This document shows positions 16,550-36,744 of a stretch of 64,000 bases of DNA, one piece after another (position 1 is the stretch's first letter; each line of letters opens with the position of its first letter). The notes under the pieces were generated by a model. The model did not search any database, was not told the DNA's origin, and saw only the letters and a list, made by a program, of their open reading frames with translations. Both the position numbers and the translations under genes were made by a program. The DNA is taken from contig JADFAD010000002.1 of assembly GCA_015665455.1 (NCBI GenBank), positions 186,001 through 250,000 on the forward strand, in the 5' to 3' direction. Origin of the DNA: Oceanospirillaceae bacterium. GTDB taxonomy: Bacteria > Pseudomonadota > Gammaproteobacteria > Pseudomonadales > Litoribrevibacteraceae.

Positions 16550-16617
16550 CGCACGTCAAACAACACAAACATTTTGGTTAAGTTATTCTTCATTTTTTCT
16601 TTGTAAGCTTTATATTA

Positions 16618-16656
16618 AGCGACCGCCAACCAAAATAAAAATGGTGACAGGTCGCT
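16618..16656. terminator. possible terminator hairpin between convergent genes
   Basis: AGCGACC (16618-16624) pairs with GGTCGCT (16650-16656) and is followed by TTCGATTTTT. It lies between the small membrane gene and the convergent gene at 16739. The loop is long, so the call is tentative. Confidence 0.4.
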
Positions 16657-16738
16657 TTCGATTTTTCAGCCTGAACTCTCTATTAAAATACACCATATAT
16701 TTTTAAACAGCTTTATCTTCTTTGAAGTTTATCTTTCA

Positions 16739-17392: not shown

Positions 17393-17488
17393 ATTTTCTA
17401 CTTATCTATTCATATAAAGCTATGTTTAAAGCTATGATTCTATAAATTTTAGTCTATATTTGTAGAATAACAAATTTGGAGGTGGGTA

Positions 17489-18781: not shown

Positions 18782-18960
18782 TTAAACCCGTATTAATTGA
18801 TGTTCACTGGATGAAAGCACACTATAACGACATGAACATATGTTGGTATAAATAATATAAGTAATCTTATTTATATATTGTTATCCCCTCCTCAAGGGAC
18901 AACATAATCATCTATTAGGTAAACACTAACACCTACTCGAAACTAGATAATGCAGCAGTA

Positions 18961-19021
18961 GTAGCCAGACACTAAGCAAAAAAATACAGACCTCATTGTT
19001 CCTATGTAACTAGACACTAAG
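18961..19021 (+). repeat. pair of 16-bp direct repeats upstream of the Gp2-like gene
   Basis: GTAGCCAGACACTAAG (18961-18976) and GTAACTAGACACTAAG (19006-19021) match at 14 of 16 positions and are 45 bp apart. A weaker copy (GTAAACACTAAC) starts at 18919. TGTTCC and GGAACA also flank the second copy as an inverted repeat. They end 12 bases before the start codon, where a replication or regulatory protein could bind. Confidence 0.55.
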
Positions 19022-19032
19022 GAACAGGTTAA

Positions 19033-19686: not shown

Positions 19687-19737
19687 CCATAACGACCGTT
19701 TTTAAACATAATGTATATCTCAAAAAAAATGGGGTAG

Positions 19738-19758
19738 AGAGGGCTGTGATGGCCCTCT
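19738..19758. terminator. hairpin between convergent genes
   Basis: AGAGGGC and GCCCTCT form a 7-bp stem with a 7-base loop, followed by TGTTTAT. It lies between the Gp2-like gene and the convergent recombinase. Confidence 0.6.
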
Positions 19759-19773
19759 GTTTATACCCTAATT

Positions 19774-20334
19774 TCAGATCTCCAATTCAACAAAATCCTT
19801 ATCAACGTCTTCCTGAGTTATCCCTATGTACCTTAGAGTTACCCCCTCTGAAGAATGCCTAAGCATTTTCATCACTCGGGCAATATCTTTGGTATTTTGA
19901 TAGAGATGGTAGCCTCTGGTTTTTCTCATGGAGTGTGTTCCAAGTTTCAAGTTCAACTCCTGACCCACTTCAGCAAAAGCTCGTGTAACGTATCGACGAG
20001 AAATCGGATGAGCAACTCGATTAATGGCCTGTCGGTTTCGGAATGACTGAAAGAGGTATTCATGGTTAGGATGCTCTTGTTGTATTCGTTTGATCCGCTC
20101 CTGTGTTTTAAGGTTAAGTGGGATATTGGCTGTTTTACCTGTCTTGCCTTCTTTCAGGATTAAACGGTCTTCCTGAATGTCACAAAACCGGATAGCAAGA
20201 AGATCTGATATTCGAAGTGCCAGATTTAAACCAACATGCCAAACGTCAGACACTTGCTTACTGAACCGTCTTTCCAGAAGATGACCGATCAACCGAATCG
20301 TATCTAGATCTTTCACTGCCTGTACTTCAGACAT
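19774..20334 (-). CDS. minimal tyrosine recombinase (catalytic domain only)
   Basis: The 186-residue protein matches the catalytic half of tyrosine recombinases. The first arginine is in LALRISDLL, the lysine on the beta-turn is in KEGKTGKTANIPL, H-x-x-R is in HSMRKTRG, the second histidine is in LRHSSEGVTLRYIG, and the nucleophile tyrosine is the Y of that segment. There is no N-terminal core-binding or arm-binding domain, so it is far shorter than the 400-residue integrase of this island. Short recombinases of this kind occur near radC in other islands, but their role is unclear. Intact rather than truncated in sequence, because an ATG opens it and no upstream frame continues. Confidence 0.85.
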   Translation of the reverse strand: MSEVQAVKDLDTIRLIGHLLERRFSKQVSDVWHVGLNLALRISDLLAIRFCDIQEDRLILKEGKTGKTANIPLNLKTQERIKRIQQEHPNHEYLFQSFRNRQAINRVAHPISRRYVTRAFAEVGQELNLKLGTHSMRKTRGYHLYQNTKDIARVMKMLRHSSEGVTLRYIGITQEDVDKDFVELEI

Positions 20335-20532
20335 GGCTTAATTCCTTATTTAATCAGAGGCACCGAATTGAGTACTTCAAACACAACATAGACAAAGAAG
20401 CCCCGTTTCATGAGGCATCCAAAGTTCCCAAACTTATAAATTGAGAACTTAAGCCATATTTATACTTTTGAAGTGAATCAATAGTGATCTGAGAATGAAT
20501 TAAATGAGTTTTTGAATGACAGAAGTAGATAG

Positions 20533-21009
20533 CTAAAGAAGATCTCGTTCAGCAAGAGATACTGAGTCCTTACCAACGACAATGTGATCAAGCACTCTGA
20601 CATCTATCAACTTCAACGCTTCATCCAAATGCTTCGTAATTTGAATATCTGCCCGAGATGGCTCTGCAATCCCTGATGGATGGTTATGGGCAAAAACAAC
20701 AGCTGAAGCCTGAGACTCCAGCACTACCTTAACAACTTCTCTCGGATACACACTGGCCGCATTGATCGTACCGAAAAATAACTCTCTGTAAGCAATAAGT
20801 TGATGTTGGTTATCCAGCAACATCACACTAAACACTTCACGATCATACTGATTAAGTTTAAAGCGTAAAAAGTCTTTTGTGGCATTAGGGCTTTGAAACA
20901 CATCCCCACGCATGTACTGTTTCTGAATGATCTCTGCCGCCCGCTCCAAGACTTGATACTCTGTCACTGGCTGATTGAACAAGTACATATTAGTTATTTG
21001 ATTACGCAT
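20533..21009 (-). CDS. radC: RadC-family JAB-domain protein
   Basis: The 158-residue protein has the JAMM metalloprotease-like core: the glutamate in YRELFFGTI, the paired histidines and proline in VFAHNHPSG, and the distal aspartate in RADIQI. The N-terminal helix-hairpin-helix of chromosomal RadC is missing, as in the short versions carried by many islands and prophages. Despite its name, its cellular role is unknown. A second, broken copy lies at 23294-23497, and its N-terminal half (SYDREV) matches the QYDREV of this one. It shares a long divergent intergenic region with the AHH-toxin gene. Confidence 0.88.
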   Translation of the reverse strand: MRNQITNMYLFNQPVTEYQVLERAAEIIQKQYMRGDVFQSPNATKDFLRFKLNQYDREVFSVMLLDNQHQLIAYRELFFGTINAASVYPREVVKVVLESQASAVVFAHNHPSGIAEPSRADIQITKHLDEALKLIDVRVLDHIVVGKDSVSLAERDLL

Positions 21010-21407: not shown

Positions 21408-22166
21408 ATGAACACAGCGTATATTCCTCTAATCACACCATCTCGACCGGATAATCCTACACCTTTAGAGCTTGCTATTTACCTATATGAGAAATCTTGT
21501 GCATCTTTTCATAACAACAAAAACGCCATTGCACCTAAGAATGAAACACAACAACAATTAAATAAAAGGATTGAAGCAAGGGATCAGGATTGGAAGCATT
21601 TGCAACTACGGAAAATATCAATCAGTGCTCAAGCCAAACTTGAAGAGGGCTTAGCTGAGTATCGAGCCGAGTCTATGAGCAAAAGCAAAATAGAACTTCA
21701 ATTAGAAAAACATCATCCAACAGACAAACTTGTTGATAATTTAGAAGCTATAGGTGAAGTAAAGCCGTCAGTCAAACATGAGCCACATCATATTGTCATG
21801 GGTAAAGGACAATACTTAATCTCTGAGATGATGCGTTCTCGGCTTGCACTACACTCATACGGAATAGGAATTAATGATTCAATTAATGGTGTTTGGCTTG
21901 CTAACTATAAAAAAGATTCAGAAGAATGGAGAATACCTGAGTCATCAAAAGAAGACCCTCGACACTGGGCAACACCTGATTCACCAACCCATCGGCCAAT
22001 GCACGGTAAAAATTACGAATTATGGATTACCCGAACACTTAGGTTGAATCTATCTGAAAAAGTTTTTATGACACACCTAAGAAACATAAAACTTAAACTA
22101 AGATCTGGCTCGTTTCCAAAAGAGATACTTCAATCGTTCGATCCCTCTTGGAGTGGCAAGGCATGA
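21408..22166 (+). CDS. stand-alone AHH-nuclease toxin
   Basis: The C-terminal half of this 252-residue protein matches the AHH nuclease fold of polymorphic toxins: paired histidines H127-H128 (HEPHHIVMG), the NGVWL segment at 160-164, and histidines 195 and 199 with Tyr203 in THRPMHGKNYELW. The family cuts DNA or RNA in target cells. Most members are the C-terminal tip of very large secreted proteins with RHS, PAAR or LXG regions. Here residues 1-120 are a short helical region with no signal peptide or trafficking domain. The stop overlaps the next gene's start by four bases, and that gene resembles an Imm11 immunity protein. Nuclease function is inferred from motifs. Confidence 0.75.
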   Translation: MNTAYIPLITPSRPDNPTPLELAIYLYEKSCASFHNNKNAIAPKNETQQQLNKRIEARDQDWKHLQLRKISISAQAKLEEGLAEYRAESMSKSKIELQLEKHHPTDKLVDNLEAIGEVKPSVKHEPHHIVMGKGQYLISEMMRSRLALHSYGIGINDSINGVWLANYKKDSEEWRIPESSKEDPRHWATPDSPTHRPMHGKNYELWITRTLRLNLSEKVFMTHLRNIKLKLRSGSFPKEILQSFDPSWSGKA

Positions 22167-22732
22167 CTTATCAACTTAAAAATATTGATGAAGAGTTCAA
22201 AACCTTGGCCCTGGATCCGATGGAGTTACTTGAGCAACTTGGAACCGAAGATGCCCTTGATGTGTTCTTAAGGCAACCAACCACAAACGACTCACTGCTA
22301 CCTATTTGGAAAAACATTCACAGTACTATGAGGGCAATGTTTGATAGTGCCCTTACACAACCAGATGTATCTCTCTGGAATTTTTTATATTTATTGATTA
22401 ATGAAAAAGCATATTCAATCTTAAAGGACCATATCAGTCCCTATGGTGAATTCCTCCCAATCACCGTGGATGGAAAGAAAATGTTTATTTTTAATTGCTT
22501 AGACTATGCCAAAGAAGACCAAGATCAGTGTCTTAGAGAGTATATTGATGGCATAGAGTGTGGATTAAAATTATTAACGTTTGATACTACAGATACGAAG
22601 GACAAACTCTTGTTTAAATCTAAACTAGAAGGGGGGTCATTATTATTTGCTTCCGATCACTTTAAGCAAATCTGCGAAAGGCATGAACTAAAGGGCCTAC
22701 GCTATGATGAAGACCTATTAAGCATTTTTTAA
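22163..22732 (+). CDS. Imm11-like immunity protein
   Basis: The 189-residue acidic protein starts at an ATG that overlaps the toxin stop (ATGA). The frame extends 15 bases further up, but only to a TTG. The C-terminus GGSLLFASDHFKQICERHELKGLRYDED follows the pattern of Imm11/DUF1629 immunity proteins, which end in a strand, a helix and a GLRF-like strand. Immunity proteins bind and block the cognate nuclease in the producing cell. Placement directly after the AHH gene, with translational coupling, supports the pairing. The family match is by eye. Confidence 0.65.
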   Translation: MTYQLKNIDEEFKTLALDPMELLEQLGTEDALDVFLRQPTTNDSLLPIWKNIHSTMRAMFDSALTQPDVSLWNFLYLLINEKAYSILKDHISPYGEFLPITVDGKKMFIFNCLDYAKEDQDQCLREYIDGIECGLKLLTFDTTDTKDKLLFKSKLEGGSLLFASDHFKQICERHELKGLRYDEDLLSIF

Positions 22733-24027: not shown

Positions 24028-24204
24028 ATGGTTGACCAAATCCTTACACTTAAAGAAGTAGCGGCTTATCTAAAGTTAGCCGAGAAAACAGCATACAGAT
24101 TAGCAAGCGAAGGCAAGCTACCAGGCTTCAAGGTTGGTGGCTCATGGCGCTTTAAGCGAGAAGATTTAGAAGCTTGGATAGAAAAGCAAAAGGATAATGG
24201 ATGA
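24028..24204 (+). CDS. MerR-like helix-turn-helix (excisionase-type) protein
   Basis: This short gene of 58 residues reads MVDQILTLKEVAAYLKLAEKTAYRLASEGKLPGFKVGGSWRF and ends REDLEAWIEKQKDNG. It is the compact excisionase/MerR-like HTH domain with the GSWRF wing. Its TGA overlaps the ATG of the mrr-like gene (ATGA at 24201-24204), so the two are translationally coupled. Such small HTH proteins sit at the head of other defence operons as regulators, or act as excisionases. Regulation of the restriction genes is the simpler reading here. Confidence 0.85.
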   Translation: MVDQILTLKEVAAYLKLAEKTAYRLASEGKLPGFKVGGSWRFKREDLEAWIEKQKDNG

Positions 24205-25133
24205 TCCCCAATTACCAAGAGTTTATGCGCCCATTCCTTGAAGTGGCAAAGTCAGCCAATGGGAAAGAGGTAAAGCTTAGGGATGTGATTAATCAGTTAG
24301 CACAACGGTTCAATCTGTCAGAAGAAGAGCGAGAAGAGCGATTGCCTAGTGGTAAACAAACCATTCTAGATAACCGTATTGGCTGGGCTCGCACATACCT
24401 CACTAAAGCAGGTTTGCTTGAAGCCACTAAGCGGGCGCACTTCATTATTACAGATAGAGGTATTCAAGCGCTGCAAGATAAAGATGCGGTTATCAATAAT
24501 CAGTACTTAAAGCAGTTTGATGAGTTTGTTGCGTTCAAAGAGCAGAAAAATGACTCTTTAAGTTCGCAAACAGCCTCTACTGAAGTAATTGAAGATACAG
24601 TAGATGAAACCACTCCAGATGAAGTGTTAAGAGCTGCGTATAAACAAATAAATGACGCCTTGGCCTCAGATATCTTATCCCGAACCCGTAAAGTATCCCC
24701 AGCTTTCTTTGAGCAATTACTTATCGATCTGCTACTAGCAATGGGCTATGGGGGCAGCGATGAGGGAATGGCCCATACGCTTGGGAAGAGCGGTGATAAC
24801 GGAGTTGATGGCGTGATTAATCAAGACCCACTTGGCGTTGATCAGGTTTACATTCAAGCCAAGCGTTATGCTGATGGCAATAACGTTGGCGCTGGTGAAA
24901 TCCGAGACTTCTTTGGTGCACTCAATCTGAAGAAGGCACAGAAAGGGATTTTTATTACGACTTCAGAATTTACCTCATCAGCGACTCAAACAGCCAAAGA
25001 CCTTGGTATGCGTATAGTGCTTATTAACGGTAAAGAGTTAGCAAAACTGATGCTGCGCTACAACATTGGTAGCCGAGATGAGCAAGTTCTAAAGCTCAAG
25101 AAAATTGATGAAGAGTTCTTCGAAGGATACTAA
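24201..25133 (+). CDS. mrr: Mrr-type restriction endonuclease
   Basis: The 310-residue protein has the Mrr N-terminal winged-helix domain (MIPNYQEFMRPFLEVAK and DNRIGWARTYLTKAGLLEATKRAHFIITDRG) and a C-terminal PD-(D/E)xK nuclease (SPAFFEQLLIDLLLAMGYGGS, then GDNGVDGVINQDPLG and VYIQAKRYA). The catalytic D of DGVI and Q-x-K of IQAK lie as in family members. Mrr-type enzymes cut DNA carrying certain methylated bases. It overlaps the small HTH gene upstream and stands nine bases before hsdR with AAGGAAAGG between them, so it belongs to the same operon. Its relation to the adjacent methylase is discussed in the findings. Confidence 0.93.
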   Translation: MIPNYQEFMRPFLEVAKSANGKEVKLRDVINQLAQRFNLSEEEREERLPSGKQTILDNRIGWARTYLTKAGLLEATKRAHFIITDRGIQALQDKDAVINNQYLKQFDEFVAFKEQKNDSLSSQTASTEVIEDTVDETTPDEVLRAAYKQINDALASDILSRTRKVSPAFFEQLLIDLLLAMGYGGSDEGMAHTLGKSGDNGVDGVINQDPLGVDQVYIQAKRYADGNNVGAGEIRDFFGALNLKKAQKGIFITTSEFTSSATQTAKDLGMRIVLINGKELAKLMLRYNIGSRDEQVLKLKKIDEEFFEGY

Positions 25134-25142
25134 GGAAAGGTT

Positions 25143-28100
25143 ATGGAACAAGTAAGTAATTTCGATTTTTTAAAAAAACATCAAGATTGGTTATTTAAAT
25201 TGGCCGAAAGTGCTGAACTCAACTTTTCTTCCGATCCTAATACTTCGCTTATAAAGATACGACAACTAGGTGAGGCTATAGCGCAATCAATCGCTGCTCG
25301 TATAGGTGTTGAGGCAGGTGGTAACGTAAAACAAGTCGACCTTCTTCGAGACCTCGATTACAACTTACGTTTAGATGATAACGTTCGAGATGCTTTTCAC
25401 ACAATTCGAAAGCTAGGTAACACCGCCACCCATAATTTTGACAGTACTAGTCACCGTGATGCGTTAAAAGCAATAATGGTCGGGCATGCCTTGTCAATGT
25501 GGTTCCATATAACTTTTGGTGGCAATGCAGCCAAAGGTTTTAAGATAAAGAAATTTGTAAAACCACAAGATCCTTCAGAATATGTACGTTTGCTAGAAGA
25601 ACAAGTAGAACAACTAAAAACAGAATCTCAACGTAGCTCTGAACGTATAAAAACAGCCGAAGAACTGAGACACATTGAGTCTGAAAAGGCCGTTGCTGAG
25701 CGAGAGCGTGCTGAGCAAATGGCCGAAGATAAAGCCGTGTGGGAGCAAATAGCGCTAGAAAATGAAAAAGAAGCCGCACAGTACAAATCGGCAGCAGAGG
25801 CTGCAAATAAAGAATACATAAAATCATTCCAAGCTAAACCGAAAGAAGAACAAGCCGCAGAACTTAAACGTATTGAAAAATCTCTATTTGAGATGGATGA
25901 AGCGGAAACTCGTGTCATCATAGATCAACAACTAGTTGATGCTGGTTGGGAAGCCGATACTGTAAATATCAGGCATGCTGACAGAATTGTTAATGGAAAA
26001 AGAGTCCCCGGTTCCAAACCAGAGCCAAATAAAAACAAAGCAATCTCTGAATGGCCAACAGCATCAGGTCCAGCCGACTATGCACTATTTATCGGTATGA
26101 CTCTCGTAGGGGTTATCGAAGCAAAGAAGAATGCTAAAAATGTCTACGGCGCTATCGACCAAGCGAAGCGTTATGCAACAGGGATTGAAGACCTACCAGC
26201 AGATGTAGAAGTCACACAACACGGTGAATTTAATGCCCCCCTTACTTTTGCCACTAATGGCCGGGCTTACTTAAAGCAATTAGAGCAAGAAAGTGGTATC
26301 TGGTTTTTAGATGTGCGTGACAAGTCTAACCGCCGTAAAGCACTCAAAGGTTGGTATTCCCCACAAGAAATTAAAACCTATTTACGTCAAACACCTCAAC
26401 AAGCAAATGCTGAACTCGATGACATGGGATTTGATTACGAGTTAAAACTTCGTGATTACCAGAAAAAAGCGATTCTAAATGTTGAGAAGTCTATTAAAGA
26501 TGGCAAAGAAAGAGCAATGGTTGCTATGGCAACGGGTACAGGTAAAACTAAAACCTGTATAGCGCTTGTTTACCGCTTACTAAAAGCCGAAAGATTTCGC
26601 CGCATCCTATTTCTCGTTGACCGAAGTGCATTAGGTGAGCAAGCGACTGTCGATTTTGGTGAAGTGAAAATGGAAAGCATTACTAACTCCTTTGCTGATA
26701 CATTTGAAGTATTGGGCATTGAGCCAGATAAATCAGCGGTACCATTTCCAGAAGATGATACGAAAGTTCACATAGCGACCGTTCAAGGATTGGTAAAGCG
26801 TATTATGTACCCATCAGATAATGGCGCTAAGCCGGGTGTAGGGCAGTATGACTGTATTGTTGTAGATGAGTGCCATAGAGGCTATTTACTTGACCGAGAA
26901 CTCAGTGAAACTGAAGTTAAGTTCCGCGATCAAAAAGACTATATGTCAAAATATCGAGCCGTAATTGAATATTTTGATGCATTCAAAGTTGGATTAACGG
27001 CAACCCCAGCACTACACACGAAAGATATCTTTGGTGATCCTGTTTTTACTTACACATATACAGAAGCCGTTATCGATGGGCACTTAGTGGACCATCTTCC
27101 ACCAACACGAATCCATACCAAGCTCAATACGGATGGGATTAAATATCAGGTTAACGAAGAAGTTCAAGTGTATGACCCTCAAACTCATCAACTTGACTTA
27201 ATCAATACACCTGATGAATTAAACTTTGATGTTGCACAGTTTAACCGTAAGGTCATAGCACCTGAGTTTACGAAAGAAATATGTCGCTGGTTGATCGAAA
27301 GTGATTCTTTAAATCCATATTCTCAAGAGAAATCCTTAATATTTTGTGTTACCGATAAACACGCAGATGACGTAGTTGAAGCGTTGAAAGAAGCGTGTGA
27401 CAACTATTTAGGTGAGGTTGATGATGATGCTATTCAAAAAATCACAGGTGCATCAGACAAACCACTCGAAAAAATCCGTCGATACAAAAACGATAGGCTC
27501 CCTAACATAGCGGTTACAGTAGATTTGCTCACAACAGGGGTCGATGTCCCACGTATATGTAATCTAGTATTTTTACGCAGAGTGAACAGCCGAATCTTGT
27601 TTGAACAAATGCTTGGCCGTGCAACTCGTCGTTGTGATGAGATTTCTAAAGAACGTTTTCGTATTTTTGATGCTGTAGATATCTACAGGCAGCTTGAAAA
27701 AGTTAACAGCATGAAACCCGTTGTTACCAAGGTTGATATTACCTTTACTGAACTTGAAAGTGAGATAAAAGACAGCCCAGATCCTAAATTGCAGCAACTC
27801 GCTAAAGATCAGTTTCTTGCCAAACTTCAAAGTAAAAAGAATTACCTTTCACATAGCCAGCACTCAGATTTTGAACGCATAGTTGGTAAGCCTCCTCAAA
27901 AATTTGCACAAGAATTGAAAAAAATGAAAGTGCAAGACGTTGCAGACTGGTTTGTTAAAAACCCTGGTTTAGGTGAGCTGCTTGATATGAAAGTAAAAGG
28001 CACTGGTGGTAACAATAAAGTGGTTATTTCCACTCACGGCGATAAAGTTACAGGCACCTCAACGGGTTACGGTAGTGGTCAAAAACCTGAAGACTATCTG

Positions 28101-28604
28101 TCATCTTTCAACAAGTTTGTTAATGCCAATAGCAATCGTATGGTCGCAATTCAAACTGTTATCCAGCGTCCTTGGGAGTTAACACGTAATAGCTTAAAAC
28201 AATTGGCATTAGAGCTGGAAAAAAATGAATTCCGAGAAGAAGATCTAAAAGTTGCTTGGAAAGAAGTCAAAAACGAAGATATTGCCGCCCGTATTATCGG
28301 TTTTATTCGTCAAGCAGCGCTAGGTGAAGCGCTTGTTCCATATGAACAGCGTGTCGATAGCGCATTAGCTAAGATACTTAATAGCCAACCTTGGAAAACC
28401 CCACAACGAGAGTGGCTAGAAACCATTGCAGGACAAATAAAAGCTAACATCATTGTTGATGAAAGCAATCTTAATGAAGGTATTTTTAAACAAATAGGTG
28501 GTATTAAACGAGCCACTAAATTATTCGAACAACCCATTACTGATATTTTGAGCCAATTTAATAAATCTATTTGGTCAGAGGATGAACAACAACAGTCGGC
28601 TTAA
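25143..28604 (+). CDS. hsdR: type I restriction endonuclease subunit HsdR
   Basis: The 1153-residue protein starts with a DUF4145-like helical domain (residues 1-140, with RKLGNTATHNFDS), then a charged coiled coil (about 140-245). The nuclease domain carries the acidic residue in GPADYALFIG and E-x-K in GVIEAKKNAKN. The SF2 translocase has motif I (MATGTGKTKTC), motif II (DECHRG), motif III (LTATPA) and motif VI (QMLGRATRR). The C-terminal third matches EcoEI-type HsdR ends. It makes ATP-driven cuts at a distance from the recognition site when bound to HsdM and HsdS. Longer than EcoKI-type HsdR. Confidence 0.95.
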   Translation: MEQVSNFDFLKKHQDWLFKLAESAELNFSSDPNTSLIKIRQLGEAIAQSIAARIGVEAGGNVKQVDLLRDLDYNLRLDDNVRDAFHTIRKLGNTATHNFDSTSHRDALKAIMVGHALSMWFHITFGGNAAKGFKIKKFVKPQDPSEYVRLLEEQVEQLKTESQRSSERIKTAEELRHIESEKAVAERERAEQMAEDKAVWEQIALENEKEAAQYKSAAEAANKEYIKSFQAKPKEEQAAELKRIEKSLFEMDEAETRVIIDQQLVDAGWEADTVNIRHADRIVNGKRVPGSKPEPNKNKAISEWPTASGPADYALFIGMTLVGVIEAKKNAKNVYGAIDQAKRYATGIEDLPADVEVTQHGEFNAPLTFATNGRAYLKQLEQESGIWFLDVRDKSNRRKALKGWYSPQEIKTYLRQTPQQANAELDDMGFDYELKLRDYQKKAILNVEKSIKDGKERAMVAMATGTGKTKTCIALVYRLLKAERFRRILFLVDRSALGEQATVDFGEVKMESITNSFADTFEVLGIEPDKSAVPFPEDDTKVHIATVQGLVKRIMYPSDNGAKPGVGQYDCIVVDECHRGYLLDRELSETEVKFRDQKDYMSKYRAVIEYFDAFKVGLTATPALHTKDIFGDPVFTYTYTEAVIDGHLVDHLPPTRIHTKLNTDGIKYQVNEEVQVYDPQTHQLDLINTPDELNFDVAQFNRKVIAPEFTKEICRWLIESDSLNPYSQEKSLIFCVTDKHADDVVEALKEACDNYLGEVDDDAIQKITGASDKPLEKIRRYKNDRLPNIAVTVDLLTTGVDVPRICNLVFLRRVNSRILFEQMLGRATRRCDEISKERFRIFDAVDIYRQLEKVNSMKPVVTKVDITFTELESEIKDSPDPKLQQLAKDQFLAKLQSKKNYLSHSQHSDFERIVGKPPQKFAQELKKMKVQDVADWFVKNPGLGELLDMKVKGTGGNNKVVISTHGDKVTGTSTGYGSGQKPEDYLSSFNKFVNANSNRMVAIQTVIQRPWELTRNSLKQLALELEKNEFREEDLKVAWKEVKNEDIAARIIGFIRQAALGEALVPYEQRVDSALAKILNSQPWKTPQREWLETIAGQIKANIIVDESNLNEGIFKQIGGIKRATKLFEQPITDILSQFNKSIWSEDEQQQSA

Positions 28605-28735
28605 TCCGATACAATAGCGCTCACTATCTTAAACGCAGATTTTGGCGATGAATAGCCTAGTTTGGAAGAATTTTAAAGCCCATATTGAAGGGCTGCATGG
28701 CTAATACACAATAACGAATTTATAAGTAGAAACTA
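28605..28735. promoter_or_regulatory. 131-bp gap between hsdR and hsdM
   Basis: This is the only sizeable gap inside the defence block and may hold a promoter for the modification subunits. No clear -10/-35 pair is visible. An 18-codon ATG frame at 28648-28704 is too short to support as a gene. Confidence 0.35.
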
Positions 28736-30247
28736 ATGAGCACACAAGACCTAATTAACAAACTCTGGAATTTATGTAACCTGTTGCGAGATGACGGTGT
28801 AACTTACCACGAGTACTTAAACGAATTAACCTACTTAATATTTTTAAAAATGGTAGAAGAAACAGGGCAAGAAGAACTTATCCCTGAAGGTTTTCGTTGG
28901 TCTGACATTGAAGAGTTCAATGCTGTAACTCGTTTAGATGAATACAAAAAACTGCTTATTCACCTAGGTTCACACGGTTCACTAATAACCAAAGCTATTT
29001 TTGCTGATGCCTCAACTTGTATTCGTAAACCAGCGACCTTAAACAAGCTAGTGACTGAAATTGATAATCTTGACTGGTACTCGGCTAAAGCAGAAGGTTT
29101 GGGCGATATGTACGAAGGCTTACTAGAGATAAATGCTAGTGAGAAAAAGTCAGGTGCTGGTCAATACTTTACCCCGCGAGTACTCATCGAGGCGATGGTT
29201 GAGCTCATGAAACCAAGCTTAGATGATGTAATAGTAGACCCAACCGCTGGTACAGGCGGTTTCTTGATTGCAGCCCATCATGAGCTTAAAAAGCACAACA
29301 ACATAAAAACCCTTGATGAGCTAGCATACGAGAAATACCAGCACGGTACATTTTTTGGAATGGAATTAGTACCTGATACTCGCCGTTTGGCGATGATGAA
29401 CCTAATGTTACATGATTTAGCAATAGACGATGACAACGCAGGTGTTTTATATGGTGATACGCTTTCAAACGAAGGCAAAAATTCACTACCCAAAGCGAGT
29501 TTAATTTTAGCCAACCCCCCCTTTGGTACCAAACAAGGTGGTGGGATACCTACGCGTGATGACTTAGTACATTATACCTCCAATAAACAATTAGCCTTTT
29601 TACATACCATGTACCACAGCATGTTAAAGCCCGGTGGCCGTGTGGCAGTAGTATTACCTGACAACGTGTTATTTGAAGGTTCAACTGGCCGTAAAATTCG
29701 CAATGATTTAATGGAAAAGTGTAATCTGCATACCATTTTACGCTTACCTACGGGCATCTTCTATGCGGCAGGTGTAAAAACCAATGTTTTGTTTTTTGAT
29801 AAGCCTACGGATATAAATCAAGATAAAGGCAATACCAAAAAGGTATGGGTATATGACCTTCGTGCCAACATGCCGCAATTTGGAAAACGCACCGTATTAA
29901 CCAAAGACCACTTTAAAGAGTTTTATCAAGCCGTTGGTAGTGATTTAACCCAAGTAGATGAAAGCAAACGCCAAGCTTTTATTGATAACCACCAAGACGG
30001 CAGTGAAATTGGTAATGTGGATACGTGCCGACTAAGAGCGTTTACTCGTGAAGAAATTGCAGCCAAAGAAGATTCTTTAGATTTAGCATGGATACGAGAC
30101 GACAGTATTGAAGATGCGGCCAATCTGCCAGAACCTGATATTCTCATTAACGAAGCCATTGAAGAGTTAGCAGGTGCGATAACAGATTTAAAATCAATCT
30201 TAGTTGAGTTGGATGTGGCAATAGATTCTGACGAGGTTATGGTATGA
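28736..30247 (+). CDS. hsdM: type I DNA methyltransferase subunit HsdM
   Basis: The 503-residue N6-adenine methyltransferase has the N-terminal HsdM helical domain (LINKLWNLCNLLRDDGVTYHEYLNELTYLIFLKM), the SAM-binding motif VDPTAGTGGFL and the catalytic NPPF of LILANPPFGTKQ. It adds a methyl group to adenine within the bipartite site chosen by HsdS and so protects the host DNA. The last four bases overlap the start of hsdS. An AGAA stretch precedes the ATG as a weak ribosome site. Confidence 0.96.
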   Translation: MSTQDLINKLWNLCNLLRDDGVTYHEYLNELTYLIFLKMVEETGQEELIPEGFRWSDIEEFNAVTRLDEYKKLLIHLGSHGSLITKAIFADASTCIRKPATLNKLVTEIDNLDWYSAKAEGLGDMYEGLLEINASEKKSGAGQYFTPRVLIEAMVELMKPSLDDVIVDPTAGTGGFLIAAHHELKKHNNIKTLDELAYEKYQHGTFFGMELVPDTRRLAMMNLMLHDLAIDDDNAGVLYGDTLSNEGKNSLPKASLILANPPFGTKQGGGIPTRDDLVHYTSNKQLAFLHTMYHSMLKPGGRVAVVLPDNVLFEGSTGRKIRNDLMEKCNLHTILRLPTGIFYAAGVKTNVLFFDKPTDINQDKGNTKKVWVYDLRANMPQFGKRTVLTKDHFKEFYQAVGSDLTQVDESKRQAFIDNHQDGSEIGNVDTCRLRAFTREEIAAKEDSLDLAWIRDDSIEDAANLPEPDILINEAIEELAGAITDLKSILVELDVAIDSDEVMV

Positions 30248-31869
30248 ATCAAGTTCCTTCAGGATGGATAGAATCTAAATTGGGTGACTTTGTTAAGCTT
30301 AAAAATGGTTTTGCATTTAAAAGTAAAGATTACATCGATGCTACGGAAAACTCCGTTCCCGTAATAAGAATATCTGATATTCAGAACGGGAAAGCTTTAA
30401 CAGATAAAGCTTCCCATGTAGATCAATCAAAGACTGATGAAAGGTTTTTAATTAATAAGGGTGACTTATTAATAGCAATGTCTGGCGCAACAACTGGTAA
30501 AACGGGAATTTATAAATCCGACAAAGAAGCTTATCAGAATCAACGTGTAGGCAATTTGAAGTTAGTTTCAGAAGACACTTCATGCCCACGGTACAGAAAT
30601 TATCTTATAAAAAGTTTACAAAATGAGATTCTAAAGAAAGCTTACGGCGCTGCACAACCCAACATATCTGCAAAAGATTTAGGCGACATTGACATAATGC
30701 TGGCTCCTTTCAAAGAGCAAAATCGCATTGCAGATAAATTGGATTCGGTATTAGGCAAAGTTGAAACTGCACAAGTTCGACTCGATAAAATCCCAACCAT
30801 CTTAAAGCGCTTCCGCCAATCCGTCCTTGCAGCCGCTACCTCAGGCGAACTCACCAAAGACTGGCGTGAGGAAAATGGCATTGATTTAAGTCGTTGGAAG
30901 AACTCTAATATCGGCGAGTTGGCTGAAGTCAAAACAGGTAGTACTCCATTAAAATCGAATAAGGAATTTTATTTAAATGGCACTGTTCCTTGGTTAACCA
31001 GTACAGTTACAGGGCAGAATTTAGTTACAAAAGCAGAAAAATTCGTCACAACTAAAGCCGTTGAAGAGTGCAGGCTGAAGGTTTTTCCTTCAGGTACACT
31101 TTTAGTAGCGATGTACGGAGAAGGAAAAACTAGAGGGCAAGTCACAGAACTCGGTATAGAGGCAACTATAAACCAAGCTTGTGCAGCAGTATTAGTAGAT
31201 CAGTCAAAAGCGAATAATAATTTTATTAAGCTTTCTATTATATCCAATTATGAAAAAACAAGACTTATGGCTGAAGGGGGAGCGCAACCAAACTTGAATT
31301 TGAGCAAAGTTAGAGCTATATCGGTTAATCTACCTTCAGATGGTGAACAATTGGAGATAGTCCGTATAGTAACTGAATTATTTTCCAACATAGAGCTGGT
31401 AGAAAAGCAATATAAGGAAGCAAAGCTTCGAGTCGAAAAGGTGACTCAATCAATACTAGCGAGAGCGTTTAGTGGCAAACTATTCTCACCAATATCAAAT
31501 GATGAAAGAGAAGCAGCCACAGTTAAAACACAAAGTTCCCAAGCGCCGAATATTAAGTCAAAGCAAAAAGAAACTTCGCAGGTAAGTAAGGATGCACAAG
31601 CTCTCAAGATTGAGAATAAGTTTAGATCACAAATAAAAATAGTTTCAGAACCCGCGACTGAAGGTGCTGAAGAGAAAATTAGCGAAGTGTTTAAGCTATT
31701 AAAGGGCAATAGTAACGGTATGTCCGCACAGGCATTATTTGATTCTTTATCTGATAATACCTTCAGCGCGATTGATGATCTTTTTAGTGAGTTAAAAAAG
31801 CTTATTGAACAAAAAACCGTTATGCAGACTGGAGAAGGTGATAGTAGTACTTTTAAGGTGGCTAAATAG
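30244..31869 (+). CDS. hsdS: type I specificity subunit HsdS with an unusual C-terminal extension
   Basis: The 541-residue protein has the two target-recognition domains expected of HsdS. TRD1 covers about residues 1-150, the first conserved helical region follows (EQNRIADKLDSVLGKVETAQ to QSVLAAATSGELTKDWRE), then TRD2 (about 215-375), then the second helical region that ends LARAFSGKL. Normal HsdS ends close to this point, about residue 410. Here 130 further residues follow: a low-complexity linker (KTQSSQAPNIKSKQKETSQ) and a compact helical domain that resembles a winged helix (EEKISEVFKLLKGNSNGMSAQALFDSL). The stop overlaps the next start by one base (TAGTG). Confidence 0.92.
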   Translation: MNQVPSGWIESKLGDFVKLKNGFAFKSKDYIDATENSVPVIRISDIQNGKALTDKASHVDQSKTDERFLINKGDLLIAMSGATTGKTGIYKSDKEAYQNQRVGNLKLVSEDTSCPRYRNYLIKSLQNEILKKAYGAAQPNISAKDLGDIDIMLAPFKEQNRIADKLDSVLGKVETAQVRLDKIPTILKRFRQSVLAAATSGELTKDWREENGIDLSRWKNSNIGELAEVKTGSTPLKSNKEFYLNGTVPWLTSTVTGQNLVTKAEKFVTTKAVEECRLKVFPSGTLLVAMYGEGKTRGQVTELGIEATINQACAAVLVDQSKANNNFIKLSIISNYEKTRLMAEGGAQPNLNLSKVRAISVNLPSDGEQLEIVRIVTELFSNIELVEKQYKEAKLRVEKVTQSILARAFSGKLFSPISNDEREAATVKTQSSQAPNIKSKQKETSQVSKDAQALKIENKFRSQIKIVSEPATEGAEEKISEVFKLLKGNSNGMSAQALFDSLSDNTFSAIDDLFSELKKLIEQKTVMQTGEGDSSTFKVAK

Positions 31870-33464
31870 TGAAGGTAGACTTTTTAAAAATCAGGGATGG
31901 CTTTAAAAATATCCACAATTTAGAAATAGACTTTGATGATAAAGAGTTATTAACGGTTCTTATTGGTAGAAACGGATCTGGAAAATCGAATATTATTGAA
32001 GCCTTAGTGCGTATTTTCAGAGCTTTAGACCTTGGTGAAGAACTAGCGCCCTTTAGCTATAAATTAATATATTCATTAGGCGCTAATAATGAAAAGCGCA
32101 TTGAAATTGATGCCTCACCAAATTATGGCAGTACTCCTCACCAACAACACAAAATAAAGGTTGCGATTAAGCAGGAAGGTAATACCTATTCAAAACCTGA
32201 AACAGTGGCTCTGTCAAAGGTTAAGCGTGATAAAAATGGGGCTTCTGAGTACTTACCTCAACACCTTTTCGCCTATTATTCAGGACCTAGTGATAGATTG
32301 GAAGACTTGTTTAAGCCTCATAGAACAAAGTTTTATAATCAACTATTAAAAAACAAAGTAAAAATTGAAGATGAGGTTCGCCCATTATTTTACGCGAAAC
32401 CATTTCATAGCCAATTTGTGCTACTCGCTTTCTTTTTAAACCAGCAACATGGTGTAGGTCGTGAATTTCTATCAGAGCAGTTGGGTATAAAAGACTTTCA
32501 TTCGGTTCACTTTGTATTTCGCAGACCTGAATGGGGTAAAAATAATAAGAAAGATATCTTTTGGGGCGCTCGTGGCGTAGTTCGTGAGTTTTTAGATAGG
32601 CTACTCCCTTATAGTTATGGCCCTATAAAATCTACAAGAGAAGAAGCAACATCGTTAACAGGTAAAGGCGTTGATAATGAGTTCGTACATTTGTTTTTGC
32701 CCGATATATACGGTTTAAAGAAAGTAGCCAAAGGCCTAAAGCCGAAAGACTTTTTTAAAATGCTAGAAAGCACATTGCTTTCTGAGCTTATTGATAGCGT
32801 AAATATCAAAGTTAAATTACATAACGATGAAATTGTTAGCTTTAGTGAATTAAGTGAAGGTGAGCAACAGCTACTGACCGTATTAGGTCTTCTAGAGTTT
32901 ACTGTAGAAGATGACTCCTTATTTTTGCTAGATGAGCCAGATACTCATTTAAACCCTGCATGGGCTGCCAAATACCATACTTTTCTTAAGCGCTTTATAC
33001 CGAATCAAAAGTTCTGCCATATCTTAATGGTAACCCATCACCCACTAGCGATTGCTGAATTAGATAAAAAGCAAATACAAGTAATACGTAATAATACCGA
33101 TGGATTGTCGATAGCTGAAGTGCCAGCTGAAAGCCCAATAGGAATGGGCGTTAATGGCATACTAACCAGTGACATGTTTGGCATGGCTACAACGCTAGAT
33201 AGGCACACAAGCTGTGTTATTGAGAAACGAAGGACGTTACTCGAAAAAGAGGCTTTAACTGAACACGAAACCAAAGAACTAAGAAAGCTAAACGGTTCGT
33301 TAGAGCGGTTAGGTTACGGCTATACCCACCCAGATGAAGATTATAGGCAGTTCCTAATTGCTAGGAAAAGAGCAATGGACGCTATGGATTCTAAAGGTAT
33401 AGATGACACTCAGTATCGGTTGAAGATAATTGAAAATATCTTGAAGACAAAAGGGCTGGTCTAG
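31869..33464 (+). CDS. AAA ATPase, PtuA-like, linked to the restriction genes
   Basis: The 531-residue ATPase belongs to the SMC/RecF/OLD-type AAA group: Walker A GRNGSGKSNI near residue 33, the ABC-like signature LSEGEQQLLTVLGLL near 325, and Walker B LFLLDEPDTHLNP near 345. The C-terminal ~130 residues after TTLDRHTSCVIEKRRTLL have no recognised domain. The start is a GTG that overlaps the hsdS stop, and the stop abuts the HNH gene. In Septu systems PtuA is such an ATPase paired with the HNH nuclease PtuB. It also matches the group called restriction-system-associated ATPases. No TOPRIM domain is seen, so OLD nuclease is unlikely. Confidence 0.75.
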   Translation: MKVDFLKIRDGFKNIHNLEIDFDDKELLTVLIGRNGSGKSNIIEALVRIFRALDLGEELAPFSYKLIYSLGANNEKRIEIDASPNYGSTPHQQHKIKVAIKQEGNTYSKPETVALSKVKRDKNGASEYLPQHLFAYYSGPSDRLEDLFKPHRTKFYNQLLKNKVKIEDEVRPLFYAKPFHSQFVLLAFFLNQQHGVGREFLSEQLGIKDFHSVHFVFRRPEWGKNNKKDIFWGARGVVREFLDRLLPYSYGPIKSTREEATSLTGKGVDNEFVHLFLPDIYGLKKVAKGLKPKDFFKMLESTLLSELIDSVNIKVKLHNDEIVSFSELSEGEQQLLTVLGLLEFTVEDDSLFLLDEPDTHLNPAWAAKYHTFLKRFIPNQKFCHILMVTHHPLAIAELDKKQIQVIRNNTDGLSIAEVPAESPIGMGVNGILTSDMFGMATTLDRHTSCVIEKRRTLLEKEALTEHETKELRKLNGSLERLGYGYTHPDEDYRQFLIARKRAMDAMDSKGIDDTQYRLKIIENILKTKGLV

Positions 33465-34343
33465 TTGCGATATATAGATATTAACTTAATTGATGCATGT
33501 AAACCTGACGACTGGGATGTTAATGCCACACAGTGGTTAACTGATATTCAGAATGCCCAGGATAAATCAGCAGAATTTAAGCGACTTGGTAGTAAATGGT
33601 CACCATTCAAGGATAACTTTATCAACCAATTTGGCGATAAATGTTGGTATTCGGAAGTTCCAAGAATTGGTACGGATTTCAATGTCGATCACTTTAGACC
33701 CAAAGGAGCCGTTAAAAAGGCCAAGGAGTCTTATGCAGTCCAAGTCGTTAATGGGCAGAGTCAAAAGCATCCTGGATATTGGTGGTTAGCATTTGAGCCA
33801 AAAAATTATCGATATTCTTGTCAGTACGCAAACCAACCAAGAGATAACGGTGGGAAACACGATTATTTCCCACTGGATAATGAAACTAATAGAGTTTGGA
33901 GTCAATGTTCATTAAGGAATCATAACGCTGAAATTCCCGTTCTTATAGATCCATGTGTACTTGCTGATGTTCAATTATTATCATTTGAAAAATCCCCAGG
34001 CATGGCACATTCTAGATACGATCAAACCACAGATAAATCTAAATATGAGAGAGTGAGGACTAGCGCTAAGTGCTATAACCTTAATCATAAGACGGTGAAA
34101 GATGAGCGGCTAAAAGTAATAACATCGGTTCAGCGAGACTTAGAACTATTGGAAAGTATTTACGGTTTACCATTGGCAAGCAAGCAGGCTATGCAAGTCC
34201 ATTCAGGCAATGCTGAAAATCGACTAATTGAAGCCTGTAATAGGTATGCCCCATTTTCAGCAGCCGCAGTAGCTTTTGTTAAACCCAAGAAAGCAGAGCC
34301 TTGGTTGGCTAATATTTTACCTAGATTAGACCTTAGCGATTAA
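33465..34343 (+). CDS. HNH endonuclease, PtuB-like
   Basis: The 292-residue protein starts at a TTG right after the ATPase stop with no gap. The HNH core runs from C60WYSE through D75-H76 (NVDHFRPKG) to GYWWLAFEPKNYRYSCQYANQ. Related HNH proteins use CxxC knuckles at both ends to hold zinc; here each keeps only the first cysteine (C60WYS, C119QYA). The catalytic histidine and the asparagine of the core are kept. The C-terminus (VKPKKAEPWLANILPRLDL) has no known domain. The pairing with an ATPase gives the Septu-like reading, but I cannot exclude an accessory nuclease specific to this restriction system. Confidence 0.72.
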   Translation: MRYIDINLIDACKPDDWDVNATQWLTDIQNAQDKSAEFKRLGSKWSPFKDNFINQFGDKCWYSEVPRIGTDFNVDHFRPKGAVKKAKESYAVQVVNGQSQKHPGYWWLAFEPKNYRYSCQYANQPRDNGGKHDYFPLDNETNRVWSQCSLRNHNAEIPVLIDPCVLADVQLLSFEKSPGMAHSRYDQTTDKSKYERVRTSAKCYNLNHKTVKDERLKVITSVQRDLELLESIYGLPLASKQAMQVHSGNAENRLIEACNRYAPFSAAAVAFVKPKKAEPWLANILPRLDLSD

Positions 34344-34464: not shown

Positions 34465-35688
34465 TTATGGATAATCTGAGTTTATAAGCTTAATTAGTTT
34501 ATTTGAGAGCAACTTCAAAGCCTCTCTCCGTTCTTTCAAATAATCATACTGGTCATAAATACCTTCAACACCCTTTAACTTGTGATTCAAGCATCTCTCG
34601 GCCACATGGCCGGGAGTGCCTTGTTTTGCCAGTAACGTACGACATGTACGGCGCAGGTCATGCACAGTGAAGTGCGGCGTATTCCCCATCAAGTTGGGCG
34701 GTTGCTTCTTCTTGCCAGCCTCATGCCCAAATAGCTTGGTAATGGCTCGGTTAAGCGTATCAGGGCCCATATAAGGCCGCTTACTAGCTCTTCTATTGGG
34801 GAATACATAATCAGCGCCACAAGCCCTTATTTTAAGCTCGTTAAACCACTCAATCGCCAGCTCTGGCAATGGAATATCAATCCCCACCCCCGACTTACTT
34901 CTCTCTGCTGGCAACGACCAAACGCCTTTCTTAAGATCAAACTCAGACCAAGGCGCTTCTGTAAGCTCCCCCTTCCTTACCCCCAACAACACCAGCAAGG
35001 CACACGCTAGATAATTATCACGAGTAAAGCTGTCGCTGTTTTCCCTAAAGATTTTAAACACTGCTTTAAGCTCATCTATAGATAAAGCTCTGCTCTTACT
35101 CTTTTCCATACCACCAGCATCATCAACTGAAAATGCAGCAGCAGGATTAGAACTGACTACATCTAGCTTTATGCCGTGATTAAAGAGCTGCTTGCAGTAC
35201 ATGAGCGTATCATTCGCAACAGTAGGGCGACCGCTATTCACAACCTTAGTTATGATCTCTCGAATGTCTCTAGGAGAGATTGAGGTTGCTTTTGAATCAC
35301 CAATAAAAGGGGCAATGTCTTTTCTATATATGCGTTCGGGAATATTCGGGTATTTGAGTCGCTTGACTAGCCCTTTATGCCAATCCTTAAAAAGATCATC
35401 GACCGTGAAAATCTTTGCTTGATCAGAGCGTCTTTTGAGTAAAAGAGGGTCTGAGCCCTCTCTAAGTTGTTTCTTCTTTATAGCTGCTTCTAGCCTTGCC
35501 TCGGCTAATGAAAGATCCATTAGTTTACCAAGCGTCATCTCTTTGCGCTTTTTGTTCGAGGTATAGCGAAGCATCCAATAGGGCTTACCTGACTTAGGTA
35601 CAACAAAATAAAGCCCATCACCATCAGCGAACCGTCCAGGCTCGCCTTTCGTTTTAGCATTGATTTCTTTTGCCGTTAAGCTACCCAT
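34465..35688 (-). CDS. int: yicC-type island integrase (tyrosine recombinase)
   Basis: The 407-residue integrase has the DUF4102 N-terminal arm-binding domain (MGSLTAKEINAKTKGEPGRFADGDGLYF), a core-binding domain, and a full catalytic domain. The catalytic residues are R in LLGVRKGELTEA, H-x-x-R in HDLRRTCR, the second histidine in LNHKLKGVEG and the nucleophile Tyr in YDQYDYLKERREAL. It sits next to the attachment site in yicC and points away from it. Integrases of SXT-mobilizable islands (MGIs) such as MGIVflInd1 also use the 3' end of yicC, and this one is the natural candidate for that group. Confidence 0.95.
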   Translation of the reverse strand: MGSLTAKEINAKTKGEPGRFADGDGLYFVVPKSGKPYWMLRYTSNKKRKEMTLGKLMDLSLAEARLEAAIKKKQLREGSDPLLLKRRSDQAKIFTVDDLFKDWHKGLVKRLKYPNIPERIYRKDIAPFIGDSKATSISPRDIREIITKVVNSGRPTVANDTLMYCKQLFNHGIKLDVVSSNPAAAFSVDDAGGMEKSKSRALSIDELKAVFKIFRENSDSFTRDNYLACALLVLLGVRKGELTEAPWSEFDLKKGVWSLPAERSKSGVGIDIPLPELAIEWFNELKIRACGADYVFPNRRASKRPYMGPDTLNRAITKLFGHEAGKKKQPPNLMGNTPHFTVHDLRRTCRTLLAKQGTPGHVAERCLNHKLKGVEGIYDQYDYLKERREALKLLSNKLIKLINSDYP

Positions 35689-35877: not shown

Positions 35878-36744
35878 CTACTCAATATTCTGGATCTGCT
35901 CACGCATCTGCTCGATCAACACCTTCAATTCCACCGCGCACTTAGTCGTTTCTGTCACAATGGACTTTGATGACAGGGTATTGGCTTCGCGATTCATTTC
36001 TTGCATTAAGAAATCCAAACGTCGACCCACAGGGCCTTTTTGTTTCAGTACACGAGCAACTTCTGTCACGTGGGCATCGAGACGATCAATTTCTTCGTCC
36101 ACGTCGGCTTTTTGAGCCAAAATCACAATTTCTTGTTCAACGCGCTGGTTATCCAATTCAGACGTCAGCTCTTCCAGACGTTCTTTAAGATTTTGGCGTT
36201 GACGATCCAATATTTCTGGCAGCTTTTCACGGACTTGTTTGGTGATCTCAGAGATAGAAACCAAACGCGTTTCAATGAATGTCTTAAGCTCCGCACCTTC
36301 ACGAGAGCGAGTATCCAGCAATTCATCCAAGGCTTTATTCAGAACGGTCGCCGCGTCTTTCAAAATAATTTTACGATCTATTTCAGAAAGCACTTGAACA
36401 CCCGGCCAGTTCAAAACGGTCGCAGGGCCAATTGAACCTTGCTTAGGCAACAATTCGTTAATGCTGGTTAAGGCGGAAACAACTTCTTGTGCGCGTTGCA
36501 TGTCCACTTCAATAGCTGAACTGCTTTCAGTATCGGTTTGGACTCTTAACTGCAATTCGACTTTACCGCGATTGAGTTTCTTACGAACGGTCTCGCGTAC
36601 GGTCTGCTCTAGGTCTCGATAACCCTCAGGCAACTTAGGGTACACTTCCAGATAACGGTGATTTACAGAGCGTAACTCCCAAACCAATGAACCCCAGTCA
36701 AATACACCCTCAGCTCGGGCAAAAGCAGTCATACTACGCGTCAT
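35878..36744 (-). CDS. yicC: YicC family endoribonuclease
   Basis: The 288-residue protein starts MTRSMTAFARAEG, keeps the family region LVWELRSVNHRYLEVYPKLPE, and ends IEQMREQIQNIE, the near-invariant YicC C-terminus. The E. coli protein is an RNase that degrades RyhB. I start at the ATG at 36744 because AAGGA precedes it; the frame extends to 36792 without homology. The gene is intact even though the island is joined to its last codons. It is divergent from rph. Confidence 0.93.
   Translation of the reverse strand: MTRSMTAFARAEGVFDWGSLVWELRSVNHRYLEVYPKLPEGYRDLEQTVRETVRKKLNRGKVELQLRVQTDTESSSAIEVDMQRAQEVVSALTSINELLPKQGSIGPATVLNWPGVQVLSEIDRKIILKDAATVLNKALDELLDTRSREGAELKTFIETRLVSISEITKQVREKLPEILDRQRQNLKERLEELTSELDNQRVEQEIVILAQKADVDEEIDRLDAHVTEVARVLKQKGPVGRRLDFLMQEMNREANTLSSKSIVTETTKCAVELKVLIEQMREQIQNIE
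35880..35898. repeat. island attachment site at the yicC side (attR)
   Basis: ACTCAATATTCTGGATCTG is the reverse complement of the last six yicC codons plus the first base of its stop, and matches 14311-14329 exactly. The island supplies a new TAG stop here, while the other copy leads into TGA, so the encoded yicC protein is unchanged. Confidence 0.9.

Follow-up and report, generated by a model that had tools for sequence, protein, structure and literature searches.

Possible steering of a Septu nuclease by a type I methylase through a winged-helix extension of HsdS

Why should a Septu-type ATPase and HNH nuclease stand directly behind the specificity gene of a type I restriction-modification system, and do these genes work together? 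The arrangement is found in a 64,000-nucleotide stretch of an Oceanospirillaceae bacterium (contig JADFAD010000002.1, positions 186,001 to 250,000; hereafter the window, in whose coordinates positions are given), where seven open reading frames (ORFs) running in the same direction encode a helix-turn-helix (HTH) protein, Mrr, HsdR, HsdM, HsdS, PtuA and PtuB. A sequence-only reading of the window had proposed that Mrr, the type I system and the ATPase/HNH pair form one translationally coupled unit that may act as a single system, the pair serving, for instance, as a back-up triggered when restriction is blocked. Comparison with related loci points instead to a smaller unit, in which HsdM, HsdS, PtuA and PtuB act jointly and in which, with a probability that we put slightly above even, HsdS tethers PtuAB by a C-terminal winged helix and places the nuclease under the control of the methylase.

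Results

Gene content and junctions of the block

The gene order and every junction given by the sequence-only reading proved exact to the base when the ORFs were checked, and matches to the PADLOC models identified its ATPase/HNH pair as the Septu pair PtuA/PtuB. The block has the following features.

24028-24204, + strand: small HTH protein (HTH_17) of 58 residues, probable regulator, outside the conserved core
24201-25133, + strand: Mrr-type (type IV) restriction endonuclease (Mrr_N and Mrr_cat), accessory
25143-28604, + strand: HsdR, 1153 residues, optional in the family (NF008521, 1410.7 bits against a cut-off of 729)
28605-28735, + strand: gap of 131 bp between hsdR and hsdM, boundary of the conserved core
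28736-30247, + strand: HsdM, N6-adenine methylase subunit (N6_Mtase and HsdM_N), core
30244-31869, + strand: HsdS with two target-recognition domains (Methylase_S, two stretches) and a C-terminal extension, core
31486-31680, + strand: HsdS residues 415-479, predicted disordered linker (predicted local distance difference test, pLDDT, below 50 in the full-length model)
31654-31866, + strand: HsdS residues 471-541, predicted winged-helix extension
31869-33464, + strand: PtuA, Septu ABC-type ATPase, 531 residues, GTG start (PDLC00293, E 1.4e-193), core
33465-34343, + strand: PtuB, Septu HNH nuclease, 292 residues, TTG start (PDLC00343, E 2.7e-78), core

The HTH gene and mrr overlap by 4 bases, as do hsdM and hsdS, whereas hsdS and ptuA overlap by 1 base, ptuA and ptuB abut, and mrr and hsdR are 9 bases apart. 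The overlaps and the abutment on which the proposed coupling rested are thus real, but coupling is not uniform along the block, as the 131-bp gap splits HTH-Mrr-HsdR from HsdM-HsdS-PtuA-PtuB. Scans for promoters (17 sites against a mean of 27.3 in shuffled sequences, i.e. fewer than by shuffling) and terminators (11 against 9.1, near chance) did not resolve the transcription units, since their counts were close to or below those of the shuffles.

The GTG start of PtuA and the TTG start of PtuB fit the relatives, M1 being invariant in the PtuA alignment and M1-R2 in the PtuB alignment. Both proteins are matched nearly full length by the PADLOC models; PtuA has the Walker A, signature and Walker B motifs, and the residues of the HNH region of PtuB are conserved. 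HsdR, HsdM and HsdS are present, each with its motifs, as in a type I restriction-modification system, the helicase motifs of HsdR and the DPxxGxG and NPPF motifs of HsdM being intact (for PtuA, PtuB, HsdM and HsdR we use the motif names that we take to apply).

The order hsdS-ptuA-ptuB recurs in distant hosts

Related loci (L numbers; genomes have G numbers) were taken from two Marinomonas contigs, plasmids, E. coli chromosomes, further genomes and viral contigs, and annotated by blastp and by profiles made in this analysis. Among 39 matching plasmid records, we analysed the six best, with at least 76% of the query covered, plus a selection of weak ones. Ten E. coli genomes matched, and five, H65 among them, were analysed; of the remaining five, H66 equals H65 in score and the other four encode exactly the PtuA of L021. 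Of the 18 loci on viral contigs, 11 were annotated; the others were weak matches (E 9e-8 or worse). A profile score of at least 398 bits defined PtuA of the window's type. This gave 23 rows, 22 of them distinct (L082 and L083 have identical values) and 21 evaluable (the contig of L024 starts just before PtuA), the window included. Three loci with the same order were left outside the count: L002 repeats the genes of L071, L008 has frameshifts throughout, and L020 is a near copy of L021 (about 99%).

In all 21 evaluable loci, hsdS lies directly upstream of ptuA, and PtuB is downstream of PtuA in 23 of 23 rows. The spacing between hsdS and ptuA ranges from -14 to +22, except in L084 (+80, by the start choice of the script) and in L023, where PtuA itself is split. 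The sequence-only reading had named a chance insertion of the pair, with the order found in no other genome, as the outcome that would speak against it; the recurrence of the order contradicts such an insertion. The same is suggested by DNA homology, which extends in two other loci from just before or at the HTH gene to the PtuB stop (pieces 75.8-86.7% identical), making the block more than a chance assembly. The pieces shared with these nearest relatives are interrupted by the hsdS target domains and by the hsdR/hsdM gap, and in L003 they also leave out most of ptuB.

The loci span Alpha- and Gammaproteobacteria, plasmids and viral contigs, and come in two gene orders: HsdM-HsdS-PtuA-PtuB in the window, E. 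coli, Vibrio, Pseudoalteromonas and others, and HsdS-PtuA-PtuB-HsdM in Pantoea (L007), Roseomonas (L009), L072, L081, L082 and L084. hsdS, ptuA and ptuB remain contiguous in both, and the conserved core, as judged from these arrangements, is formed by the four genes for HsdM, HsdS, PtuA and PtuB.

This PtuA type is rare, being found in 3 of the 398 genomes of a phylum sample (G000, G051 and G319). More distant ATPases (75-159 bits) also stand behind HsdS in 14 loci, with an intervening ORF in L087 and a split in L028, and for nine weaker relatives (47-85 bits) no HsdS was identified directly upstream. Viral contigs scanned with an E. coli PtuA gave no match, and a phage search only a distant one (23.5% identity). 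On a Vibrio anguillarum plasmid (L008), HsdR, HsdM, HsdS and PtuA are broken up, through decay or sequencing errors. A Rhizobium plasmid (L137) encodes a 761-residue ATPase and a PtuB relative (E 6.8e-36) in a stretch with no annotated HsdS; the PtuB family reaches beyond the HsdS-linked loci.

HsdS in these loci ends in a winged-helix extension

HsdS is 516-665 residues long in these loci (397 in L073, which lies near a contig end), and a segment of about 70 residues forms its C-terminal end. The full-length model of the window protein consists of an ordinary HsdS, which matches the solved HsdS 1yf2 with an E of 1.9e-25, the disordered stretch 415-479 and a small domain. When residues 415-541 were modelled in isolation, a disordered first half was followed by a winged helix (helix-helix-helix-strand-strand) with a pLDDT of about 90. 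Foldseek related the extension to linker histones (histone H1), Fur and PerR, among others, with a best E of 0.013 and no match reaching 0.001; VIA-align aligned it to winged helices with Z up to 9.4.

Against the 398 genomes, the extension profile gave matches below E 1e-20 solely in G000, G051 and G319, the same three that have this PtuA type. Another 40 matches were weak (E 3.3e-6 or worse) and were rejected as true extensions; the seven inspected by eye were IHF-alpha (L033, L034, L045), Fur-like proteins (L032, L038, L048) and another protein (L053). Among PDB sequence matches, IHF-alpha was likewise at the top, with a Fur-family entry lower. As a control, 30 HsdS loci were chosen by score out of 100 genomes, of which 40 had HsdS (that of G051 is not among the 30), and only the window's own HsdS had the extension (1 of 30). 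An iterated profile detected it in 18 of the 21 HsdS of this PtuA type's loci, in none of 14 HsdS before other ATPases and in none of 29 sampled regardless of their neighbours (L106 of the 29 is the same gene as L028 of the 14). Searches of plasmids with the extension returned two known loci or none. In the sets tested, the predicted extension is confined to HsdS followed by this PtuA type.

By eye, the HsdS of L026, L076 and L089, which precede a different ATPase type, resemble one another in a C-terminal extension of another kind, so that every type of ATPase may be served by an HsdS adaptor of its own.

The extension is exchanged together with PtuA

Natural exchanges between loci separate the extension from the methylase. 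L018 and L021, both from E. coli and both near ygbA and hyp genes, are 89% identical in HsdM but only 25% in the extension, 46% in PtuA and 35% in PtuB. Conversely, L018 and the viral contig L081, whose type I backbone is a different one, share 46% in HsdM, 64% in the extension, 77% in PtuA and 75% in PtuB. Between L021 and L019, the extension (82%) and PtuA (74%) are kept while PtuB differs (33%), indicating that the extension goes with PtuA rather than with PtuB there. In L027 (HsdM 74% identical to that of L005) and L077 (HsdM 80% and HsdR 66% identical to those of the window), HsdS ends where the extension would start and a different ATPase comes next.

Over 19 loci, identity in the extension correlated with that in PtuA (0.82), HsdM (0.65), the HsdS core (0.56) and PtuB (0.53). 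With the others held, the partial correlation was 0.59 for PtuA, a value not reached in any of 2000 permutations, 0.18 for the HsdS core, 0.09 for HsdM (312 of 2000) and -0.04 for PtuB. In a PtuA tree of 20 rows, which leaves out five that are split, cut, duplicate or short, the rows linked to the extension cluster, with 2 label changes against a mean of 13.9 after shuffling.

PtuB of L003 (L003:11599-12477) is 57% identical to that of the window (33465-34343), where PtuA is 92% identical; PtuB can thus be exchanged on its own.

HsdR and Mrr are variable parts

By tblastn, HsdR was present in the window and in L071, L003, L006, L008, L072, L081, L082 and L086. It was not found in the analysed stretch of L004, L005, L007, L009, L018-L023, L085 and L136; L024, L073 and L084, where it was not found either but which have little upstream sequence, were counted as undecided. 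Whole-record searches of genomes G051 and G319 (drafts of 100% completeness in about 60 and 110 contigs) and of the plasmids of L004, L005, L007 and L009 detected neither an HSDR_N domain at E 0.01 nor any protein related to the HsdR of the window at E 1e-6. As controls, the HsdR search recovered the window HsdR and the HSDR_N search was positive in 10 of 14 control genomes. Where HsdR is present, its kind varies: the window kind, a kind of 925-935 residues (L072, L081, L082) and another in L086. The NPPF motif of HsdM was kept in all 11 HsdR-less loci examined, and the stricter DPxxGxG pattern matched in 8 of them. The position of the hsdR/hsdM gap holds a Fic gene in L071 and an Abi gene in L006.

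A close relative of the window Mrr accompanies the block in L071, L003 and L008, and none was seen in most other loci. Mrr looks dispensable from these comparisons, because it is split in L071, where the rest of the block is open, and has no close relative in most other loci. The idea of three defence logics joined in a single system finds no support in the form proposed, and a coupled seven-gene system was rejected, Mrr and HsdR being optional among the relatives. Since HsdR is undetected in many loci, blocked restriction, the trigger suggested for the back-up role, cannot be at work everywhere.

The barest case is E. coli L136, in which JAB and DUF2787 genes are followed by HsdM-HsdS-PtuA-PtuB and then dinD. 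In the E. coli cassettes, a family of proteins of 476-494 residues is encoded upstream of hsdM (L021:3184-4665, L018:3000-4427). None of the genes tried upstream of hsdM was named by Pfam (E. coli, L023) or by PADLOC (E. coli, L022, L023).

Discussion

How a methylase might steer PtuAB

Sequence comparison supports joint action of the four core proteins through their linkage and conservation, the matched presence and joint swaps of the extension and PtuA, the intact motifs and the HsdR-less loci. The latter also suggest that restriction is not required. Beyond this, we infer a physical docking, a gating by methylation and a nuclease target, as follows. HsdM and HsdS would form a sequence-specific methylase that marks the host's own sites, and the winged helix of HsdS, on its flexible linker, would dock PtuA and so keep the PtuA-PtuB nuclease on the methylase. 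As long as only methylated sites are met, PtuAB would stay quiet. An encounter with unmethylated, phage sites would cause a change that the winged helix relays to the ATPase PtuA, and the activated PtuB would cut nucleic acid, either phage DNA or host tRNA. HsdR would be a second, classical output of the same complex in the window, and PtuAB the sole output in HsdR-less loci. PtuAB of retron-Eco7, which depletes tRNA-Tyr directly or not (PMC11555353), and PtuAB of a Septu system have been linked to depletion or cleavage of tRNA-Tyr (PMC11555353, PMC13096335), and nicked DNA is given as the target of PtuAB from another Septu (PMC11555353).

These loci might even amount to a separate class of defence. 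A type I methylase, whether or not HsdR is present, would direct a Septu nuclease via the HsdS winged helix, and the methylation state of a specific DNA sequence would gate the HNH effector (DNase or tRNase). Recognition by the type I system would then lead to abortive infection rather than to restriction; we hold this to be a little short of an even chance.

Several points weigh against steering by the methylase. The structural models are of single chains, and the full-length one is less sure of the small domain (pLDDT 60-72 per block, below 50 for residues 529-541). The winged helix might bind DNA instead of PtuA. Thirteen of the 21 HsdS tested had seeded the iterated profile, which found five of the eight others and missed L073, L085 and L086; by eye, these three resemble the extension, and a profile comparison gave a probability of 78% (E 1.7e-5). 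Rank correlations of the extension hardly differ (PtuA 0.36, HsdM 0.33, PtuB 0.24, HsdS core 0.17), meaning that it is the closer pairs that carry the contrast seen for PtuA in the partial correlations. The HsdS core, too, retains a weak partial signal (51 of 2000 permutations). As the extension adjoins ptuA on the DNA, linkage alone could cause joint swapping, and the neighbouring position could lie behind part of the correlation. The extension-linked group in the PtuA tree needs two label changes, although a single one is possible, and so is a single origin. The loci were found via PtuA, and the frequency with which such systems lose it cannot be read from them. The absence of HsdR covers the four plasmids but not the chromosomes of their hosts and, for E. 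coli, the analysed stretch only. Lastly, PMC11555353 leaves direct tRNA cutting by PtuAB open and considers retron-Eco4 likely not to target tRNA.

Other explanations of the linkage

The back-up role proposed by the sequence-only reading has a precedent in EcoprrI-PrrC and comes second in our ranking. PtuAB would be silenced by the methylase or restriction complex and released as a suicidal back-up when phage anti-restriction proteins seize that complex. PrrC, an ABC-ATPase tRNase, is linked to the type Ic system EcoprrI, which keeps it silent until T4 Stp releases it (PMC2610378, PMC12707154), and PrrC170 was cloned together with HsdR, HsdS and HsdM (PMC11555353). PtuA is likewise an ABC-type ATPase located behind hsdS, and the winged helix of HsdS would be equally suited as a leash. 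Yet loci without detectable HsdR have no restriction to back up, and it is for this reason that we place this guard mechanism behind steering by the methylase and regard it as rather unlikely, even though inhibitors of the Ocr kind could still be baited by a methylase alone.

The two systems could also be independent defences that merely move in one cassette, the HsdS extension being an unrelated add-on. Such company is known: TgvAB, found inside a type I locus, gives protection by itself, 10- to 100-fold weaker against several phages than that of the entire cluster (PMC11411939), DarTG2 is located between hsdS and hsdR (PMC12255303), and Septu is known inside or near Hma systems (PMC8565338). 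Annotated ATPase-HNH pairs without HsdS also occur (L130, L132). However, PtuA of the window's type was apart from HsdS in none of 21 loci, the extension was restricted to these HsdS in the sets tested, and L027 and L077, despite their close HsdM, lack both the extension and PtuA, with another ATPase in place. We thus consider independent co-mobilisation improbable. Winged helices commonly bind DNA, and the model of the extension resembles domains of histone H1, Fur and PerR, among others; one could therefore imagine that the extension binds DNA, or else HsdR, and that PtuAB is tied in solely through operon expression. This appears very improbable to us, because L022 and L023 carry the extension without detectable HsdR, whereas L077, with its close HsdM and HsdR, does not have it, a pattern indicating that the extension follows PtuA and not HsdR.

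Relation to known systems

The pair resembles type I Septu in its order, an ATPase and then an HNH nuclease, and in the nearly full-length PADLOC matches. The window's type stands behind hsdS in every evaluable locus, with hsdM nearby where visible, whereas the pairs of L130 and L132 have neither beside them. With EcoprrI-PrrC, to whose logic the proposed steering is close, it shares an ABC-ATPase toxin gene in a type I locus, and an attack on tRNA is described in the literature for some PtuAB pairs. It differs in having two proteins, one an HNH nuclease, in place of a single PrrC, and the loci can lack HsdR and have an HsdS with a winged helix. No PrrC-type match was among those listed for the ATPase (Pfam, E up to 0.1, with the model that we take to hold PrrC). 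In retrons of type I-A (Eco7/Ec78; Septu type II), a PtuAB effector is similarly attached to a separate sensing or gating module; the partner there is a reverse transcriptase with multicopy single-stranded DNA (msDNA), whereas here it is HsdM-HsdS. Membership of retron type I-A was rejected (NF041760, 65.3 bits against a cut-off of 500), and Pfam gave no reverse transcriptase match among 17 proteins of the block and its flanks.

The HTH protein scores above the NCBIfam cut-off for MAD1 (88.1 bits against 80), and the MADS models of the methylase, ATPase and HsdS match weakly; MADS membership was rejected (MAD2 102 against 720, MAD3 30.1 against 420, MAD5 34.3 against 400). The restriction system-associated AAA ATPases of TIGR04435 also follow hsdS (L134, L135), but the HsdS of these two loci lacks this extension, and the window ATPase was rejected as a member (126.1 against a cut-off of 300). 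TgvAB and DarTG2 likewise place a second defence within a type I operon. Their effectors are different, and a matched HsdS domain is not mentioned in the passages of their accounts consulted.

As far as the literature searched tells, the constant join of HsdS and PtuA, the matched winged helix of HsdS and the HsdR-less form are new; among the matches listed from open-licence literature, in the excerpts consulted, we found no description of an HsdS-PtuA link. The excerpted passages on Septu name no switch-on signal, and PtuAB bound to a sequence-specific methylase would, if this is true, have a defined one. HsdR would then also not be the only effector that recognition by a type I system can drive. 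For annotation, the extension could serve as a marker, an extended HsdS predicting a Septu partner, and what is annotated as an orphan methylase or an incomplete type I system may in fact be a whole defence.

Mobile element and neighbouring genes

The block sits in an element bounded by 19-bp direct repeats.

14311-14329, + strand: 19-bp direct repeat, probable left attachment site
34465-35688, - strand: tyrosine integrase, right end of the element carrying the block
35880-35898, + strand: 19-bp direct repeat, probable right attachment site, at the 3' end of a yicC-like gene

By eye, the element lies between gmk-like and yicC-like genes (region 13632-36792), and the E. coli cassettes L019 and L136 adjoin dinD-yicG-ligB-gmk-rpoZ-spoT. 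The flank names gmk, rpoZ, spoT, yicC and rph are those we presume from reading the ORFs by eye. These distant hosts may share one chromosomal neighbourhood as a hotspot for insertion.

To the left of the block, positions 15201-21009 are occupied by remains of a mobile element: a transposase-like ORF (15201-16148, by eye), a YagK/YfjJ protein, an integrase fragment and a RadC-like protein. Further on, 21408-22166 encodes a protein of the AHH nuclease family (PF14412, 33 bits against 22.3), and a gene for 194 residues with no Pfam or NCBIfam match (22148-22732) overlaps it by 19 bases; the two look like a nuclease toxin with its immunity gene.

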